Assembly: GCA_027482225.1 (NCBI GenBank)
Contig: JAIXWD010000020.1
Span: forward strand, 124,001-188,000
Direction of reading: 5' to 3'
DNA: 64,000 bases
From: Bacteroidota bacterium
GTDB lineage: Bacteria; Bacteroidota; Bacteroidia; UKL13-3
In this document: positions 18,697 to 27,284 of the stretch, in pieces
Position numbering within the stretch: position 1 is the stretch's first letter
Layout: each line of letters starts with the position of its first letter
Notes under the pieces: generated by a model
The model's database searches: none
The model's input: only the letters and a program-made list of their open reading frames with translations
What the model was told of the DNA's origin: nothing
Translations under genes and position numbers: made by a program

Positions 18697-18731
18697 AATC
18701 CTGTTGGTGCAATACCAACAGGATTTTTTTG
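18697..18731 (+). terminator. Intrinsic terminator of the fabD/DUF1569 unit
   Basis: AAATCCTGTTGGT-GCAAT-ACCAACAGGATTT + T-run. Confidence 0.85.
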
Positions 18732-18742
18732 TCTTTTTTTTT

Positions 18743-18790
18743 GCTAATAACGTTCTCTGATCTTTGCTATAAGATCTTTTCTAACGTTAA
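18743..18790 (-). repeat. Short/degenerate attC-like palindrome (attC6), terminal end of cassette array
   Basis: TAACGTT...GATCTT-tgctat-AAGATC...AACGTTA inverted repeat directly after the last cassette ORF; boundaries uncertain by about 1 nt. Confidence 0.55.
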
Positions 18791-19201
18791 TCAGTTTGAC
18801 TCTGTGTATTTTTTAAAATTGTCTAAGATTGCTTGCCAGCCGTTTCTCTGCAATTCAATTGGATTTTCTGTTTCTGGGTCAAAAGTAATGGCTACTTCTG
18901 TTTGTCCGTTTGTTTCTTTAAGCTCTAAAGTTGCCTGTCGTCCGCCAAATTCATAGGTAAAACCTTCACCTTGGCGGATGTCTAAATAAACAGCATCAAA
19001 GTCAAAACCAAAACTTCCGTCTTTAGCTTCCATTCTTGCTACATATCGTCCACCAACTTTAATATCGTTTGTTACAGTTGGGCAATGCCAACTTGGGTCG
19101 GCAAAGTTCCATTTTATTATATGTTCGGGTTGAGTGTAGTAGTCCCAAACTTTCTTCGTGTCTGCATTTATGGTAGCAGTAACATTTATTTTATTTGTCA
19201 T
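18791..19201 (-). CDS. SRPBCC / AHSA1-like domain protein (cassette 6)
   Basis: TATINADTKKVWDYYTQPEHIIKWNFADPSWHCP...WQAILDNFKKYTES. Confidence 0.88.
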   Translation of the reverse strand: MTNKINVTATINADTKKVWDYYTQPEHIIKWNFADPSWHCPTVTNDIKVGGRYVARMEAKDGSFGFDFDAVYLDIRQGEGFTYEFGGRQATLELKETNGQTEVAITFDPETENPIELQRNGWQAILDNFKKYTESN

Positions 19202-19204
19202 AAT

Positions 19205-19672
19205 TTATTTGAGTTCTGATAAAATTATTTTTTTCATTTTAAATGTATTTGTCAATGCTTTATCCCTTACAATTGGGTCTTCGCTCTGAATAAGTTCAAA
19301 ATACTCAACTGGAACTATCTGCCACGATAGTCCATATTTATCTTTGCACCAACCACAAACACCTTCTTCTCCTCCGTTATTTGTTATTGCATCCCAATAA
19401 TAATCAGTTTCAGCTTGGTCTTTTGTACTTATAACAAAAGAAACGGCTTCATTAAATTTAAACAAAGGTCCAGCCGCTAAAATACTAAACTCAATACCTG
19501 CAATTTGCATAACTGCTGTATCAAAGGTTTGTCCACCCATTTCTGGTGGATTTGTAAATTGCCGATAGTCTTTTAATATGCCGTCTTTAAAAATTGATAA
19601 GTAATAACTTACTACTTCTCTTGCGTCTTTCTCAACCCATAGACAAGGTGTTATTTTTTGTTGAACTGTCAT
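19205..19672 (-). CDS. VOC-superfamily protein, PhnB/3-demethylubiquinone methyltransferase-like (cassette 6)
   Basis: QKITPCLWVEKDAREVVSYYLSIFKDG...GWCKDKYGLSWQIVPVEYFEL. Confidence 0.9.
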   Translation of the reverse strand: MTVQQKITPCLWVEKDAREVVSYYLSIFKDGILKDYRQFTNPPEMGGQTFDTAVMQIAGIEFSILAAGPLFKFNEAVSFVISTKDQAETDYYWDAITNNGGEEGVCGWCKDKYGLSWQIVPVEYFELIQSEDPIVRDKALTNTFKMKKIILSELK

Positions 19673-19715
19673 ATCGTTTATTTTTAATTATTTCTAAGTG
19701 GTTTCGGTAAAATTG

Positions 19716-19851
19716 CTCGTAACGTTTTTGGGGCTTTGTGAAGTTGGCGGATTTTCAGCACAAAAGTTCAATGGAAGCACGAATGTTGAATCTTGCACAA
19801 AAGTTTAATAGAAGCACTTCAGCCGACATTTTGCCTAACCGATGTTAGGGG
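19716..19851 (-). repeat. attC-like imperfect palindrome (attC5)
   Basis: Minus strand CCCCTAAC...GTTACGAGC ends; internal GGCAAAATGTCGGC / GGCTTTGTGAAGTTGGC arm similarity; same loop motif as other copies. Confidence 0.8.
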
Positions 19852-19863
19852 TTCGTTGTGTTG

Positions 19864-20202
19864 TTAGCCTGTAATCTGTTGCAACCATTCTGAAATTATT
19901 TTTGGTTTAATGTCGTCAACACTTCTTATTTTAAGGTGTTTCAAAGTGTTTCCTTCGCCTTCTAATAAATTCTCAGGGTCAATGAGTTTGTCTATTTTGT
20001 AAAAGCCAAGAGTTATATGCTTTTTCGCAAATCTCAAGTATGCAAAATCTTTCCCATTGTTGAATACTGGCATATTCCATTTAATTTCTTCTGAAACATT
20101 GTCTATTGTCTCGTGGACGATTTTTCGCAATGTTTCAAGAATTATTATTTGTTCTTCTGTAGCTTTGTCTATATATTCAGTTACTTTTTTATTATAGTTC
20201 AT
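19864..20202 (-). CDS. DUF1801-domain protein (cassette 5)
   Basis: ETLRKIVHETIDNVSEEIKWNMPVFNNGKDFAYLRFAKKHITLGFYK. Confidence 0.85.
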   Translation of the reverse strand: MNYNKKVTEYIDKATEEQIIILETLRKIVHETIDNVSEEIKWNMPVFNNGKDFAYLRFAKKHITLGFYKIDKLIDPENLLEGEGNTLKHLKIRSVDDIKPKIISEWLQQITG

Positions 20203-20212
20203 AAAATTTTAT

Positions 20213-20647
20213 CTAATTGTCTCTACAAGCGCATTCGTGATTTTCATTTATATACTTGATTGTTGCTATACTTAACTTTTCTAATGTGACAAGATTGATG
20301 TCAGATAATTTTTTGAAGTAAATACAGGCTTTACCCATTTTAAATTTCCCTAAATTTTCAAGAAGTTGTTTATTGTCATGTCCAGGTGCAGAAACATAAA
20401 GTGAGAATTCGGCTTTTCTAGGAGAAAAGCCAATTAGCATAGAGTCACCATCGTGTCCGCTCGCGTATTTGTAATGATAGCTACCAAAACCTATCATTGT
20501 TGGACCCCACATTTTTGGTTCGAAGCCTGACCATTTTTTCATAAGGTCAATTAGTTTAAGACTGTCTTGTTTTTTTTGTTCATTGTCTACAAATGAGTTT
20601 ATGAAGTTAAATACATTGACTTCTGTTGCTGTCGTTTTTGATGCCAT
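20213..20647 (-). CDS. DUF1801-domain protein (cassette 5)
   Basis: LIDLMKKWSGFEPKMWGPTMIGFGSYHYKYASGHDGDSMLIGFSPRKAEFSLY. Confidence 0.88.
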   Translation of the reverse strand: MASKTTATEVNVFNFINSFVDNEQKKQDSLKLIDLMKKWSGFEPKMWGPTMIGFGSYHYKYASGHDGDSMLIGFSPRKAEFSLYVSAPGHDNKQLLENLGKFKMGKACIYFKKLSDINLVTLEKLSIATIKYINENHECACRDN

Positions 20648-20696
20648 CTTATTTATACGTTTTTGATTTTTAGTCCAATGTCGTTTTTTACAATGA

Positions 20697-20830
20697 CCGC
20701 TAACGTTCCCACGCTTGGCGCAGTGGGGGATTTTGGAAAACTAAATTGTCTGCCAGCACAAATTTACAATAGAAGCACAAAGTTTCAATGAACCACTTTA
20801 GCCCCCATTGCGCCAAACTTGTGTTAGCGG
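20697..20830 (-). repeat. attC-like imperfect palindrome (attC4)
   Basis: CCGCTAAC...TTGGCGCAGTGGGGG ... CCCCCATTGCGCCAA...GTTAGCGG; long near-perfect arms. Confidence 0.9.
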
Positions 20831-20919
20831 CTGTTTTTTCTGTCGTGACTGTCCGCGGGTTGCGTTAACGTCTGAACGTGATGGTTACACGAAAAAACTA
20901 AAAACTGTCTGCAAAAAAA

Positions 20920-21747
20920 TTATGGCAAAGTTGTCTTTAAGTAAGCAAAGTTGTCTACCCACGATCCGCTGCTGTTGTCATAGGTCATGCTATTTGTCTT
21001 TAACGCAAATGAACTGTCGTTGATCCACACTATTTCTGAGATATACCAGCCGTCTGCCTCATGATTTATGTAGCCCTCATACTTTAATGAATTATTTGTC
21101 TTAGTAATTTTAATAACATTAAACCGACAAAACCCTTCAGGAGATGTCCCGTCATTTGAAAAGGAAATCAGGAATTTGTCATTAGGTGAAATAACAGGTG
21201 GATTATTAGGTCCATCCAATAGCGAATTTAAGGTGTACTTTATATTACTTGAACTATCAATTAAGAATGATTCTCCCAGAGTAAACTCGCCAGTTTCCCA
21301 CCAGTTTTCTAAAACGTAAACTTTCAACTCGTCTACATAGCCTTTATATCCAAACCAAGAAAATCCTCTACGATTTCCATAGCTCTGATTATACTCAATG
21401 TTGAATGGGAGTTTTGATTTTGCAGTTTTAATAAAGAATAGCGTATCTTTTAGTTCAATTCTGGAAGAGTCTACTGTCAGTTTATTATGGTAGTTTTTCT
21501 TGTATTTTATAAATTGTGTTTTGCTGATTTCAAAAAATTCGAGTTTTGTCTTAATAAGAGTCGAGCAGTTTATGCATATAGTAGCGTCAACTGTGTCTGC
21601 TAAGTCGATATTGTCTTTGTAAAGGTGTTCAATTTTGTCTTTTTTTGTGGTGTCGCTGTCAACCCGTTGCGAGGCTGTTTGGTTTGAATTGTCGCATGAT
21701 GCGAGGAAAAGCAGTCCAAATATTTGAAGAAAAAACCGTCTTGTCAT
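20920..21747 (-). CDS. Hypothetical lipoprotein (cassette 4)
   Basis: MTRRFFLQIFGLLFLASCDNSNQTA lipoprotein signal; start 22 nt inside cassette boundary. Confidence 0.7.
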   Translation of the reverse strand: MTRRFFLQIFGLLFLASCDNSNQTASQRVDSDTTKKDKIEHLYKDNIDLADTVDATICINCSTLIKTKLEFFEISKTQFIKYKKNYHNKLTVDSSRIELKDTLFFIKTAKSKLPFNIEYNQSYGNRRGFSWFGYKGYVDELKVYVLENWWETGEFTLGESFLIDSSSNIKYTLNSLLDGPNNPPVISPNDKFLISFSNDGTSPEGFCRFNVIKITKTNNSLKYEGYINHEADGWYISEIVWINDSSFALKTNSMTYDNSSGSWVDNFAYLKTTLP

Positions 21748-21762
21748 TTCGTTTTAAAATTA

Positions 21763-21899
21763 CCGCTAACGTTTCCGTAGCCTTGCGCAGTTGCCGATTA
21801 CGGAACGATAATCTGTCGTGCTAAGATAAAGATGAAAGCGTAAAACAAAGCTGAAATTTAGCAATTTAACGGCAATTGCGCGAGGGTACTGTTATAGCC
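21763..21899 (-). repeat. attC-like imperfect palindrome (attC3)
   Basis: CCGCTAACG...CCTTGCGCAGTTGCCG ... CGGCAATTGCGCGAGG...GTTATAGCC. Confidence 0.88.
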
Positions 21900-21914
21900 A
21901 GTTTCATTTCTGTG

Positions 21915-23036
21915 TCAGTCAAAGGATATTTGTCGAAATGTGTATGAGTCTTTATTCCTTATGTATACAAAAACGCCCAAAGATCGTTGCGCAATAAAAA
22001 TAGTACTGTTGTTATCGATTTGCATTCCAACTGGACGACTACCAGCAGAATAACCTTTCCCAAGGCTATATTCTATATTTAGTTTAGTCTTTATCACTTC
22101 TTCAATACTATCTTTCTGTATTCTGAACACCCCAAATTCAGACATAATGAACAAGGGGACCTCCTTGTCTTTTAGACAAAAGGCACTTAAATCCGACTTT
22201 TCTCCAAATAGTAAATGCATTTGTGGCACTGAATCCTGTTGAGGTTTATCCTTTGACTTACGTGGTTGCGGCCATAATACTTGTTGAAGTTTATCTTTTT
22301 GAAATGTGTAAATGCCTGATTCACGCATAGCAAGGTGCGATAGTCCGCTGGCTATCCAAAGTGTACCCTTTGAAGAATACTCTAGTCCTTTTATGTTATC
22401 TTCTATGATAAATTTCCCTTTACCGAAAGTTTTATTATCCCCTTTTGAAATTGGTATTTCTACAAGAGCACCGCCCCACTCTCCATTGTCATAACCGAGA
22501 TATATACTATTTGAAGTCATTAAACAATGTTGCGGTATGTCGTAATCGTTTGCATGAAATTCATCTATTAAGGAATCAATTGCAATTTTCTGCCAAGTTG
22601 AGTTAGGTTGTTTGAAAAATATTTCATCAAACGTAATTACCAAGAGCAGATTTTCATTTGCCACCAGCCTAAACTTTTTGATTTTATTGAAATCAGGAAA
22701 AAGAGGATTCGTAGTCCATTTACCCTCATGTTTGTTCTTTGTTAAGAGGAAGAAGGAGTCGTCTCTTTGCACAATAACATGTAAAGAGGAAGGTGTTTCT
22801 GTCAAGTCAAGAATTGCTGTATCATTAGCAATTTGAAGTCTAGTTAGCCTGTTTTTTATTGTGTCGCAAACGTAGTATTTATCGGTTCTTGACCAGTCTT
22901 TTTCCGCAATAATGAGGCCGTTCCAAACAAGTAGTCTTTTAAGTAACGGTTGTTCTACTTTCAGCTGGTCTATATTCTGTCCAAAACAGGAAAGAGTTGA
23001 TAGAAAAAAAATGAAAGCTAGTTTAATGTTTGTCAT
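21915..23036 (-). CDS. Hypothetical secreted protein (cassette 3)
   Basis: MTNIKLAFIFFLSTLSCFGQNIDQ signal peptide; start 15 nt inside cassette boundary. Confidence 0.7.
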   Translation of the reverse strand: MTNIKLAFIFFLSTLSCFGQNIDQLKVEQPLLKRLLVWNGLIIAEKDWSRTDKYYVCDTIKNRLTRLQIANDTAILDLTETPSSLHVIVQRDDSFFLLTKNKHEGKWTTNPLFPDFNKIKKFRLVANENLLLVITFDEIFFKQPNSTWQKIAIDSLIDEFHANDYDIPQHCLMTSNSIYLGYDNGEWGGALVEIPISKGDNKTFGKGKFIIEDNIKGLEYSSKGTLWIASGLSHLAMRESGIYTFQKDKLQQVLWPQPRKSKDKPQQDSVPQMHLLFGEKSDLSAFCLKDKEVPLFIMSEFGVFRIQKDSIEEVIKTKLNIEYSLGKGYSAGSRPVGMQIDNNSTIFIAQRSLGVFVYIRNKDSYTFRQISFD

Positions 23037-23043
23037 CGAAATT

Positions 23044-23179
23044 GGCTATAACGTATTCGGGCTTGGCGAAGGTGGCGATTTTCACCACAAATGTTGATGC
23101 GGAAAACCAAACTTTGATTAACCACAAATGTGTCTGCGGAACACTGAACCGCCACTTTTGCCAAACCCGTGTTATGCGG
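23044..23179 (-). repeat. attC-like imperfect palindrome (attC2)
   Basis: GGCTATAACG..GGGCTTGGCGAAGGTGGCG ... CGCCACTTTTGCCAAACCC..GTTATGCGG. Confidence 0.9.
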
Positions 23180-23189
23180 TCGTTTTTCT

Positions 23190-23603
23190 TTATGCTCCAT
23201 CATGCTTTTCTTTATATCTGATTGGGGTAATAGCCCAAATTAGTTGAAAAACAAAAGCACCAATCAGTGTCCATAGAATATCATTCCAGTCAAAACATCC
23301 TCTTGTTGTTATAGTTTGCAAAAACTCCCAGGATAGAAGTCCTGCAAGTGAAATTAGGTTTGCAGTAATGTGTTTCTTTTCGTTTAACCATTTATTTGTC
23401 CATTGCATTTGTGGTATTATTAAAATAAATAATGCAGGTATTCCAATTGCTGGAAAAAAATTAGGAGCAATTCCCAACAAATATATTATTGTCAAGTTTA
23501 CGCCTGTGTAATTTGGTCTAATGTTGTCTTGCACTTGTTGATATGCAATAAAGCAAAGTGCAAATATCGTGAACCAATAAAATAAACTCTTTGATGTCTT
23601 CAT
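23190..23603 (-). CDS. Hypothetical small membrane protein (cassette 2)
   Basis: 137 aa, about 4 hydrophobic segments. Confidence 0.6.
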   Translation of the reverse strand: MKTSKSLFYWFTIFALCFIAYQQVQDNIRPNYTGVNLTIIYLLGIAPNFFPAIGIPALFILIIPQMQWTNKWLNEKKHITANLISLAGLLSWEFLQTITTRGCFDWNDILWTLIGAFVFQLIWAITPIRYKEKHDGA

Positions 23604-23620
23604 TTTTTTAAAGTATCTCG

Positions 23621-24289
23621 CTATAATGTTGTCGTTCTATTTTTCATTTTGTCATAAAGGTCTTGAATAATCTTTTTGCTTTCAATTAATTTAGCTCCTG
23701 ATATAATCGCTTTTTTGGCATTCCATAACGAGGGAATTGACAACTTTCCTTGTGAAAGAGAATACATCCAAATTAAGTCTATAAAGTTTATAAATAGATT
23801 TAGCCTATAAAATAATGATGGATTTTTAATGTCAAACCCCATTTTACCTAATGTCCTATCATTGAAGAAGTATGATGTCCCAACTATATTTACCGTTTCT
23901 GGTATGCTTTTATTCTCAATTAGCTCAATTATTTTTATTAATCCTTCAATATGGTACAACAATAGCTTAGTTCTTATTTCAATTCCTGCTCTATATTTTC
24001 TCATTACAAATAAGTAGTCAAAACTACCGCCACTGTGTAAGTCTATTTGACGGTCGTTTGCAATATAGCCAAGTAACATTGGTGAATAATACTTGTATAC
24101 ACCGATAAGTCTTAAAAGTGGTGTAACGGCAAATTGTCCAATAGGAATATAAATTATGAATAGTAAATAAAATATTGGTTGAGAATATCCTTTCTCAATA
24201 ATTGAAAGTGCTGGCAAAAAACCAAATAACAGCAATAAAAGGGCTTCAATCCATTGTATTATCTTTGGTTGTTTATAGAAGCCATTCAT
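23621..24289 (-). CDS. Hypothetical membrane protein (cassette 2)
   Basis: 222 aa; 4-nt overlap with upstream CDS. Confidence 0.6.
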   Translation of the reverse strand: MNGFYKQPKIIQWIEALLLLLFGFLPALSIIEKGYSQPIFYLLFIIYIPIGQFAVTPLLRLIGVYKYYSPMLLGYIANDRQIDLHSGGSFDYLFVMRKYRAGIEIRTKLLLYHIEGLIKIIELIENKSIPETVNIVGTSYFFNDRTLGKMGFDIKNPSLFYRLNLFINFIDLIWMYSLSQGKLSIPSLWNAKKAIISGAKLIESKKIIQDLYDKMKNRTTTL

Positions 24290-24933
24290 ATTCGTGCTGT
24301 CGTTTTTCGTTCAATATTGCGACCATAAAAGTATGAGGCTTTTTCTTCAATATTATCGTATGTTACTACTTCTTTATCCCTATGAAATTCAAAATAACAG
24401 AGCAGTGCAAAGTCACCTGAAGACATTGCGGTATGGCAGAGTAAAATACCTAAAATTGTCAATGACCAATTATAAGAAGAAATTGAAAGTAATAATAGCA
24501 ATATCATTGAAATTGAAATAAAAGGGGCGAGTACAACTATTCTGAATTCATTCTTATTAGCAACAAATTTGTCAGCAAGTGCCAAAAAGTAAAACTTCTT
24601 TATGTTTGAGTCATAAGATGTATTTTTTGCTCCCTGCGATTTATAAGCTAAAACGTGAATGTATTCGTGCAAAGGAACTAATAAAAAGGCGATTGAAAAA
24701 CCAATAAAATAGTGGTATGTCCAATCTAAGTTTGTTAACATTTCCTGCTGAAAATTAACAACAAACAAAATGATTGCTATCAAAAGAAAAAAAATATTTA
24801 GTCCATAAAATACAATTGAAATAGTCGTCCTTTTATTAAGATATTTTCTTAGAAATACTGGCAGATCCTTGTGTTCTAACTTGTCAAGCAGAAAATATCC
24901 TTTTTCTGTCAGTTGGTCTGGTCTAATTTTCAT
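24286..24933 (-). CDS. DUF3267-like membrane putative zincin (cassette 2; start revised to MKIRPDQLTEKG)
   Basis: HEYIHVLAYKSQGAKN HExxH in multi-TM context; the track's N-terminal 35 codons lie in attC1. Confidence 0.75.
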   Translation of the reverse strand: MKIRPDQLTEKGYFLLDKLEHKDLPVFLRKYLNKRTTISIVFYGLNIFFLLIAIILFVVNFQQEMLTNLDWTYHYFIGFSIAFLLVPLHEYIHVLAYKSQGAKNTSYDSNIKKFYFLALADKFVANKNEFRIVVLAPFISISMILLLLLSISSYNWSLTILGILLCHTAMSSGDFALLCYFEFHRDKEVVTYDNIEEKASYFYGRNIERKTTARI

Positions 24934-24954
24934 TTCTAAATGTCGTATTAAAAT

Positions 24955-25090
24955 GCCGCATAACGGTTTGCAGCTACAAGAAGTTGGCGATTTCGAAGCA
25001 CAAAACTGTCTGCCTGCACTGAACTTGATACGAAGCACAAAGCTTCATTTAACCACTGAACCGCCAATTTCTTGTAGGTGCTGTTAGCAC
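24955..25090 (-). repeat. attC-like imperfect palindrome (attC1)
   Basis: GCCGCATAACG..AGCTACAAGAAGTTGGCGATTTCGAAGC ... CGCCAATTTCTTGTAGGTGCTGTTAGCAC; 16-bp arms with one mismatch. Confidence 0.92.
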
Positions 25091-25239
25091 TTCGCCCTTC
25101 TTTTCTGTTGTGTTGTTGTCTGTCCATTTTGGTCTGTCTTACTAATTTTTGGAGTCTTTAATTGAGAATTCAGTTTGGTAGCAAAATCTGTCAAAACAGT
25201 AATTGCAGTCTATTGATAAAGTATTCTTTACAACTGAAG

Positions 25240-26019
25240 TCAATTTGCTCTTTTAATTTTTCCTTTGCTTTTCGATTTATAATAGGCTGCCCACATTGAT
25301 GCAATGCCACCCAGAGCAACCCAGATTGAGCCTGGAATATCTTTTCCTTCAATTTCAGCCAATAAAAATACTATTCCAATTATTATACTCATCCCAACTA
25401 AAACAAAATACATCCAAGATTTTTCGAAAAGTGATTTTGTCCTAATAACCTTAGATTGATTTTCACCCTTGAAGTTTGCTATTGCCTTTTCAAATTCATC
25501 ACAGAAAATTTCTAATTGTTCTTCGTTGCAAAAATTGCTGTTGGCTACAAGTGTTAATTCGCTCCGATTTGTAAAAAGAATTTTAAGAGTAACCCCATTC
25601 ATGTAATCTACTTGATATGATTTTATTTCATTAAAATTTATAATATGTTTCCTATCAACTAAATTTATTTCTGCGAAGGTTTCAGACAAAATTGCTTGTC
25701 CTTTTTTCTTAATATTTTTCCGATTGAACCAATAAATTAAAATTGGAACTACAAATGCAGCAATTAGTACTGCAAAACCAAGCCATAAAGCAGAAAACAT
25801 TAATAGAACAAAAGGCACAAAAATGAGCCCGAATAAATTCAATAAATATTTTTGGTCAGTAAATTCAAAATTATATTCCAAAACCTGTCCCTTTATATGT
25901 TCTAATTTACTAGAAGGTATCTCTATATTTACTTTGGGTAGTGCATATCCACATTTCGTACAGTATTTTTGTGAACTTGAGTTAATTGCTCCACAGGTAT
26001 TGCAGTTTATTTTATCCAT
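25240..26019 (-). CDS. Zinc-ribbon membrane protein (cassette 1)
   Basis: INCNTCGAINSSSQKYCTKCGYALP zinc ribbon plus TM segments. Confidence 0.75.
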   Translation of the reverse strand: MDKINCNTCGAINSSSQKYCTKCGYALPKVNIEIPSSKLEHIKGQVLEYNFEFTDQKYLLNLFGLIFVPFVLLMFSALWLGFAVLIAAFVVPILIYWFNRKNIKKKGQAILSETFAEINLVDRKHIINFNEIKSYQVDYMNGVTLKILFTNRSELTLVANSNFCNEEQLEIFCDEFEKAIANFKGENQSKVIRTKSLFEKSWMYFVLVGMSIIIGIVFLLAEIEGKDIPGSIWVALGGIASMWAAYYKSKSKGKIKRAN

Positions 26020-26061
26020 GTCATTCTGTTAAGTTTATTTCTTGTCGGGCATTTCTTTTAG

Positions 26062-26145
26062 GGTGAGTGCTAACTAGTTTATAGACGAAGGTTTTCTTCG
26101 CTTATCTACCCTAATTTCGGTGTATATACGAAGGTGTTCTTCTTT
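26062..26145 (-). promoter_or_regulatory. Candidate attI-like attachment site
   Basis: Core GTGCTAAC at 26067-26074 (minus GTTAGCAC) complementary to attC1 first core; adjacent direct repeats ACGAAGGTTTTCTTC (26085-26099) and ACGAAGGTGTTCTTC (26128-26142). Confidence 0.6.
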
Positions 26146-26171: not shown

Positions 26172-27284
26172 TCATAGATCTAAACTGTCGAATGGTGATA
26201 CAATATTACGAATACTTCGGGTACTTACATGGGTGTATATTTCTGTTGTTTTACTGCTACTATGTCCCAAAATTTCTTGGATGTAGCGTAAATCGGTTCC
26301 GTTTTCTAATAAATGTGTGGCATAGCTGTGGCGCAACCAATGTAATGTTACAGGCTTATTAATGTTTGCTTTTCTTACAGCATCTTTTAATACAAGTTGT
26401 AAACTTCTGGCATCATATGGCATTCCTTTTTGCATGCCTTCAAACAAATAACGCTCGGGTTGGTGTGCCTTTGCATAAGTACGCAATAAATTTATGGTTT
26501 TATCGCTTAATGGGCTTATTCGGTCTTTCTTTCCTTTCGATTGATTGATGCGTAAAATATTTCGTTTAGAATCAATGTCTGTTAGTTCTATTTTTAACAG
26601 CTCGCCACATCTTAAACCGCAACTGTAAACTAGCGATAACATGGCTTTATGTTTTATGTTGTTTAGCGAATTAAGAATAGCACTTACTTCTTCTTTATTT
26701 AAAACATTAGGTATTCTTTTTTCACGTTTGGGCCTATGAACAGTTGCTATGTTTATTTTAGTGTTTTTTACTACCGTAAAAAACAGCTTTAGAGCATTTA
26801 CTACTTGGTTTTGATAGGAGGCCGAATATTTATTCTTTTTAATATAGTCGTTGTTAAAGTTTATAATATCGGTGTTGTCTATCTCTGATATCGGTTTATT
26901 GGCATAATATTTTAACAATATTATGATTGCATCTGCATATACTTTTATGGTTTGTTCACTATATCTTCTTGAGTGCATCCACCGTGTAAATTGTTCAATA
27001 TATAGTGGTGTTTCGTTTGCAAATGTGTTTGTATCCTTTGGGGTGTATGTTTTTACATCTATGGCAATTTTCATTAACTCCCTGTGGGTTTCATTATCCG
27101 CAATATGCCATGCTTTTAATGTGCGGCTCCATCTTGCTCCAGGTATTGCCCTTACCAATTGGTTAAGTGATGCGGTATTTGCAAAGTATAATGCGATACG
27201 TTGTTGGTTATCGTGCAGAACCAATTTTGCCATGATGGTTTTGTTGGTAATTAGTTGCGCAATTTGTATAACCGTGTCGGTCAT
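26172..27284 (-). CDS. Tyrosine recombinase with extra N-terminal domain (cassette-array integrase candidate)
   Basis: Catalytic boxes SCGLRCGELLKIELTDID...HWLRHSYATHLLENGTDLRYIQEILGHSSSKTTEIYTHVS; N-term LVLHDNQQRIALYF...IPGARWSRTLKAWHI; no IntI-type insertion between boxes. Confidence 0.92.
   Translation of the reverse strand: MTDTVIQIAQLITNKTIMAKLVLHDNQQRIALYFANTASLNQLVRAIPGARWSRTLKAWHIADNETHRELMKIAIDVKTYTPKDTNTFANETPLYIEQFTRWMHSRRYSEQTIKVYADAIIILLKYYANKPISEIDNTDIINFNNDYIKKNKYSASYQNQVVNALKLFFTVVKNTKINIATVHRPKREKRIPNVLNKEEVSAILNSLNNIKHKAMLSLVYSCGLRCGELLKIELTDIDSKRNILRINQSKGKKDRISPLSDKTINLLRTYAKAHQPERYLFEGMQKGMPYDARSLQLVLKDAVRKANINKPVTLHWLRHSYATHLLENGTDLRYIQEILGHSSSKTTEIYTHVSTRSIRNIVSPFDSLDL

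Follow-up and report, generated by a model that had tools for sequence, protein, structure and literature searches.

A putative integron-type cassette platform beside an I2-less tyrosine recombinase in a Bacteroidota chromosome

Integrons are gene-capture platforms known for the spread of antibiotic resistance, and their crossover takes place at G^TT. The stretch of DNA analysed here (the window) comprises 64,000 nucleotides of a Bacteroidota bacterium (class Bacteroidia; assembly GCA_027482225.1, contig JAIXWD010000020.1, positions 124,001 to 188,000), and all positions below are window coordinates unless a locus or contig is named. A gene for a tyrosine recombinase of 370 aa (26172-27284, minus strand; Pfam Phage_integrase, 1.8e-41), the proposed cassette integrase, was identified beside an attI site, behind which ten minus-strand open reading frames (ORFs) were partitioned into six units by five palindromes of 128-130 nt each, measured core to core. 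An initial annotation, made from the sequence alone, had reported the five long palindromes, which were present where it placed them, and its ten same-strand ORFs and six proposed units were correct. The array part of its "integron-like" reading thus stood, while the description was incomplete in leaving the adjacent recombinase and the attI unmentioned, and the system is more unusual than that term suggested because its recombinase differs from the canonical integron integrases.

All elements of the array were encoded on the minus strand. The attI (26074-26135) contained an inverted arm pair, ACCTTCGTATATACACC and GGGTAGATAAGCGAAG, and a third direct copy, ACCTTCGTCTATAAACTAG, which reached the G^TT crossover. 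Cassette 1 (24964-26073) carried an ORF for a zinc-ribbon membrane protein (25240-26019), started with TTAGCAC and had the own attC core GTGCTAAC; its attC (24960-25087) scored 126.7 bits with R1, a covariance model built from the five window sites only. Cassette 2 (23052-24963; start TTATGCGG, own attC CCGCATAAC) held three ORFs (about 24286-24933, 23621-24289 and the VanZ-like 23190-23603), with the attC at 23048-23175 (118.5 bits). Cassette 3 (21770-23051; start TTATAGCCA, own attC TGGCTATAAC) held one ORF without a family (21915-23036) and an attC at 21766-21895 (116.1 bits). A lipoprotein-like ORF (20920-21747) was found in cassette 4 (20704-21769; start TTAGCGG, own attC CCGCTAAC; attC 20700-20827, 134.9 bits), and two DUF1801 ORFs (20213-20647 and 19864-20202) in cassette 5 (19723-20703; start TTAGCGGT, own attC ACCCCTAAC with one mismatch; attC 19719-19848, 103.4 bits).

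The terminal unit 6 (18751-19722) held a 3-dmu-9_3-mt/VOC-type ORF (19205-19672) and an AHSA1/SRPBCC ORF (18791-19201). Units 2 and 6 are probably composite: each resembles a fusion of cassettes that has probably lost an internal attC, since the component parts are found apart from one another in other genomes. At the far end of the array lay a short degenerate palindrome (18743-18790), which had been counted as a sixth boundary; the five long boundaries were confirmed, and the short one was recovered by neither R1 nor the second model R2, with a core that mismatched the start of unit 6, so it would be an eroded terminal attC at best. No PADLOC match, which would have indicated defence cargo, was obtained for ten window ORFs.

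The palindromes were found to belong to a family of attC sites tied to the recombinase. R1 was searched against 76 loci, fetched for encoding a homologue of the adjacent recombinase, and recovered 72 sites outside the window (E 1e-28 to 0.04), every one of them on the recombinase strand and downstream of the recombinase. R2, a covariance model from 55 sites, gave 86 sites outside the window on the recombinase strand and none on the opposite strand; the R1 figure is the unbiased count, because R2 was partly trained on the loci searched. Sites were present in 34 of the 37 recombinase loci having at least 2 kb of downstream sequence, and most site-less recombinase loci were contigs ending shortly past the recombinase.

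When folded as single-stranded DNA, four of the window palindromes gave z values of -2.8, -1.6, -2.2 and -2.5 relative to shuffled sequence. Across the 55 sites, 93% of stem cells were paired versus 63% after shuffling, and the covariation score reached 0.685 versus 0.153 shuffled and at most 0.10 when slid. The paired stem cells (n=1173) consisted of 1144 Watson-Crick and 29 G-T pairs, with 22 of the 29 at a single position; since G-T pairs were nearly absent, the attC stem would be DNA rather than RNA. Invariant elements were the TAACA and CGTTA of the two opposite sides and an A-C mismatch inside the stem. This mismatch (100% A, 97% C) and spacers of 1 versus about 6 nt made the sites strand-asymmetric, without clear bulged unpaired bases. 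None of the five window cores fitted the RYYYAAC / GTTRRRY consensus exactly, in agreement with the initial annotation, which had called them near to it but not identical.

The cassette boundaries could be read from the cores themselves. The bases after G^TT belong to the next cassette, therefore complementary core ends are expected within one cassette and not across one attC. In the window, start and own attC matched fully in four cassettes (TTAGCAC/GTGCTAA, TTATGCGG/CCGCATAA, TTATAGCCA/TGGCTATAA and TTAGCGG/CCGCTAA), and with one mismatch in cassette 5 (TTAGCGGT/ACCCCTAA). This circle logic was examined in a first set of 38 cassettes and then in 83 consecutive ones, where complementarity of at least 4 nt to the own attC core was found at the cassette start (bases after GTTA) in 65 of 83; across the same attC it occurred in 4 of 83, and permuted pairings gave a mean of 3.4 and a maximum of 12. 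The complementary bases at the boundary are not among the positions that the model pairs. Canonical IntI arrays of sister classes showed the same own-core match at some consecutive sites (7, 7 and 6 nt).

Directly behind the recombinase, about 90 nt past its stop codon, the window attI placed the crossover AG^TTA at 26074/26073. The first attC of a locus predicts how its first cassette should start, and a search for that start past the recombinase gene succeeded in 28 of 35 loci; its distance from the stop codon was 85-131 nt in nearly every case, and the context was mostly ...TATANNNN(A)AG^TTA or a close variant. The congener G002 had the same attI (88% over 67 bp, with similarity ending at 26070), reading ...CTTCGTCTATATACTAG and then a different cassette, TTAGGTAC. 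Its first cassette was self-matching (start TTAGGTAC, own attC core GTACCTAAC), and so was that of G006 (start TTATGTGC, own attC core GCACATAAC).

Both flanks of the array were syntenic within the genus, with the units between them replaced. In G004, the flank proteins were 93-99% (left) and 92-98% (right) identical to those of the window and the flank DNA was 95% identical over 5.2 kb and 92% over 5.5 kb, respectively; in the contig-covered parts between the flanks, different cassettes with their own attC were present, and only the terminal AHSA1 gene was common. Similarity on the left side covered the left flank and the AHSA1 half of unit 6 in G004, where it stopped at 19163; it stopped at 18743 in G005 and at 18729 in G002. 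Whole-unit replacement at the same chromosomal site was observed in G004, G002 and G006. Single cassettes of the window, or their genes, also recurred in other arrays: the first ~640 nt of cassette 2 formed a stand-alone cassette in another locus (L156), beginning at an attC boundary, a homologue of part of cassette 5 adjoined attC in other genera (L148, L149), and DUF1801 and AHSA1 genes stood beside attC elsewhere.

These comparisons bear out the mobile cassette array in a Bacteroidota chromosome that had been proposed, since relatives keep both flanks and carry different units. The proposed G^TT cut points gained independent backing from the complementarity of cassette ends and from the congener breakpoints, which fell at 26070-26074 (attI) and at the left end at 18729-18743, as expected for gain and loss of units at those points. 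The alternative that would have spoken against mobility, the same gene order inherited vertically, was excluded by congeners with conserved flanks and different units. The recombinase gene was itself a mosaic between congeners (27089-27284; L180/L179), with its first ~65 codons at about 92% DNA identity to G004, as the flanks, and the whole recombinase protein only about 53% identical. This pattern suggests exchange of the catalytic part, the attI and the cassettes as one block.

In the NCBIfam search the recombinase matched the XerA/integron-integrase model with 233 bits, and TIGR02249 with 206 bits (cut-off 265) split into two stretches. Its catalytic residues R225, K250, H315, R318, H341 and Y350 were invariant in 26 homologues. 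Between fixed alignment points around the I2 region, nearly all sequences of the family had 49-50 residues versus 91 in IntI1, and the alignment to IntI4 fell into two blocks separated by 72 residues in IntI4 versus 30 in the window recombinase; by these alignments the IntI-specific (I2) region of about 40 residues is absent from the recombinase. In trees the family formed one branch (94/90) outside the IntI branch (100/100), and a sister relation of the two was neither shown nor rejected (p-AU 0.22). The idea of an IntI that lost I2 was discarded, as the family was not nested within the sampled IntI.

The structure model (pLDDT 82, pTM 0.53) resembled XerA and IntI4, with an extra N-terminal beta-alpha domain; the N-terminal extension of the protein measured about 90 residues. 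Residues 18-70 (about 27075-27233) were arranged as a beta-beta-alpha-beta-beta-alpha domain with two invariant tryptophans. A HARP-like identity is not claimed for the N-terminal domain, as a weak Pfam HARP match was obtained in just 3 of 26 members (best E 0.0069). This domain might help the enzyme to recognise DNA that is branched or folded.

Compared with known systems, the locus shared with integrons the attI beside a recombinase, the one-way arrays of units with 1-3 ORFs, the attC hairpin with R-type cores, the G^TT crossover and the complementary core ends within one cassette circle; the TAACA/CGTTA cores were also found in canonical arrays of sister classes. Unlike in integrons, I2 is missing from the recombinase, which branches outside the IntI clade, and the gene is read in the direction of the array, attI following its 3' end. 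The attC sites had no exact RYYYAAC core (0/5) and, in place of defined extrahelical bases, the conserved A-C stem mismatch. Integron platforms also carry a cassette promoter, Pc; promoters of Bacteroidota deviate from the sigma-70 consensus. We know of no cassettes or attC sites for XerA or archaeal XerC-like recombinases. These (NF040815; PDB 5hxy and 4a8e) were the closest solved relatives in sequence and fold and likewise have a catalytic core without I2, but the Bacteroidota family differs from them in its N-terminal extension and an IntI-like C-terminal SPFD motif. In Treponema chromosomal integrons the integrase is also transcribed toward attI and cassettes, although these belong to a different phylum and are classified as intI, with a canonical integrase (PMC3607928). 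Detection of IntI in standard software requires the IntI-specific domain (PMC9668308), and IntegronFinder 2.0 reported a complete integron in Bacteroidetes only in Salinibacter (PMC9024848). No published description of I2-less cassette systems was found in the full-text literature, a search that left most subscription journals and preprints outside.

Taken together, we consider it highly probable that the locus serves, or served until recently, as an integron-type cassette platform run by the adjacent I2-less recombinase. Comparison across the loci establishes the attC family with its stem, the attI, the G^TT boundary and the circle logic, and also that units are replaced and that the system is linked to the recombinase. 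The system thus appears integron-like in operation, but it departs from integrons in the missing I2 domain, the position outside the IntI clade and the cores that deviate from strict RYYYAAC. In the proposed mechanism, the recombinase would join circular cassettes to the adjacent attI at AG^TTA and would recombine attC sites with one another, by which units could be inserted, excised and shuffled in a single orientation. The attC would be read mainly by its folded single-strand shape, with short fixed TAACA...CGTTA cores and a long stem of free sequence; recognition as a folded strand is suggested because the stem sequence varies freely while the pairing and a few bases are kept. We infer that this recombinase is the acting enzyme and that it acts on single-stranded hairpins, without the I2 helix and through another element, perhaps the N-terminal domain.

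Several observations weigh against this interpretation. Among the 83 cassettes 18 did not close, some of them probably through a missed intervening site, and a clear attI match was absent in 7 of 35 loci. The hairpin at 19.7 kb folded poorly alone (z +0.4), so that the single-strand folding expected from the initial annotation held for four of the five repeats and failed for this copy, which nonetheless matched the family model with 84-103 bits. Some genomes had sites although no recombinase match reached E 1e-60. According to a passage of PMC7790495 citing Messier and Roy 2001, I2 is experimentally necessary for cassette recombination by canonical integrases, and therefore an I2-less enzyme acting on hairpins would be unexpected. 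Excision or capture has not been observed.

If the cassettes do move, another enzyme could be responsible: the locus would then be an orphan array (CALIN) moved in trans by a canonical IntI, with the neighbouring recombinase unrelated to it. Canonical IntI does occur elsewhere in the phylum, in other classes and, within Bacteroidia, in the single genome G095; the canonical attC sites there have TAACA/CGTTA cores too and obtain weak R2 scores. This explanation is nevertheless very improbable, as no IntI (TIGR02249) match was found in the window genome at E 1e-70, and in 34 of 37 testable loci the array had the I2-less recombinase as its neighbour on the same strand, attI following immediately after the gene. 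The same recombinase might instead act on double-stranded or cruciform DNA by ordinary Xer-like two-strand exchange with no folded single strand, which would suit a Xer-like enzyme without I2 whose closest solved relative is XerA. We regard this as unlikely, because pairing was kept while the stem sequence varied, which sequence-specific duplex binding would not need, and because it is the two ends of a single cassette circle that regain complementarity.

The remaining explanations concern whether the array moves at all. That cassettes moved formerly and the integron has since decayed into a static locus would be in line with the fused appearance of units 2 and 6, their lost internal attC and the degenerate terminal site. 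We hold it to be quite unlikely, since the recombinase ORF is intact with its catalytic residues, the newest cassette agrees with attI and the first attC, and different cassettes are found in a congener whose proteins are 97-99% identical for most of the flanking genes. The palindromes could also be taken for RNA elements, terminators or REP/MITE-like repeats between ordinary genes, as they fold and lie between co-directional genes; with no Rfam match, hardly any G-T pairs, boundary complementarity, attI and unit replacement left unexplained, and a contradiction from the comparison of orthologous loci, this can practically be dismissed.

A reading that goes beyond a platform run by the I2-less recombinase is that integron-type, structure-guided cassette recombination exists in a recombinase lineage that never acquired I2. 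We lean moderately toward this view, in which I2 would be dispensable for folded attC, or the task would have been solved separately (for example by the N-terminal domain), with integrons arising or diverging in two branches.

A true IntI was detected in 85 of 299 genomes of the phylum, and among the matches listed all but one (G095, Bacteroidia) were from other classes. Matches to the I2-less family occurred in 135 of 296 sampled Bacteroidia genomes (E 1e-60), a count that includes distant members unchecked for arrays and for the length of the I2 region. If the family works as the comparisons imply, nearly half of the Bacteroidia genomes sampled would harbour a large gene-capture network that has escaped annotation, and the family would offer a natural test of the role of I2 and of the origin of integrons. 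The window genome (99.9% complete) encoded four PF00589 (Phage_integrase) proteins in total. A scan of viral contigs for phage carriage found no relative, and plasmid carriage was rejected: one Chryseobacterium plasmid had the recombinase, but R2 found no array there.

Tyrosine recombinases adjoining IS91-family transposases (L106:15165-16088, L121 and L122) were grouped near IntI in the tree. They are related and similar in length to XerA-type enzymes, but their partner is the IS91 transposase and not a cassette array; they could help to trace how IntI originated. Locus L166 (1838-4505) comes from another class, in a genome that has canonical IntI; there, Bacteroidia-type attC sites (at most 80.7 bits) lay upstream on the IntI strand, and two adjacent cassettes had apparently swapped ends, the start of one matching the attC of the other.

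More attC-like sites were present in the window genome itself, at C7:21660-22464, C16:138008, C3:410943 and C10:152552-156375, scoring 26-95 bits with R1; most stood alone or in pairs, which would fit cassettes residing at secondary sites. The two on contig C10 were near another tyrosine recombinase (C10:151711, 429 aa). The complete genome G029 (L157-L163) contained three recombinase copies and 49 attC-like sites, with a run of more than 10 behind the copy at 118822.

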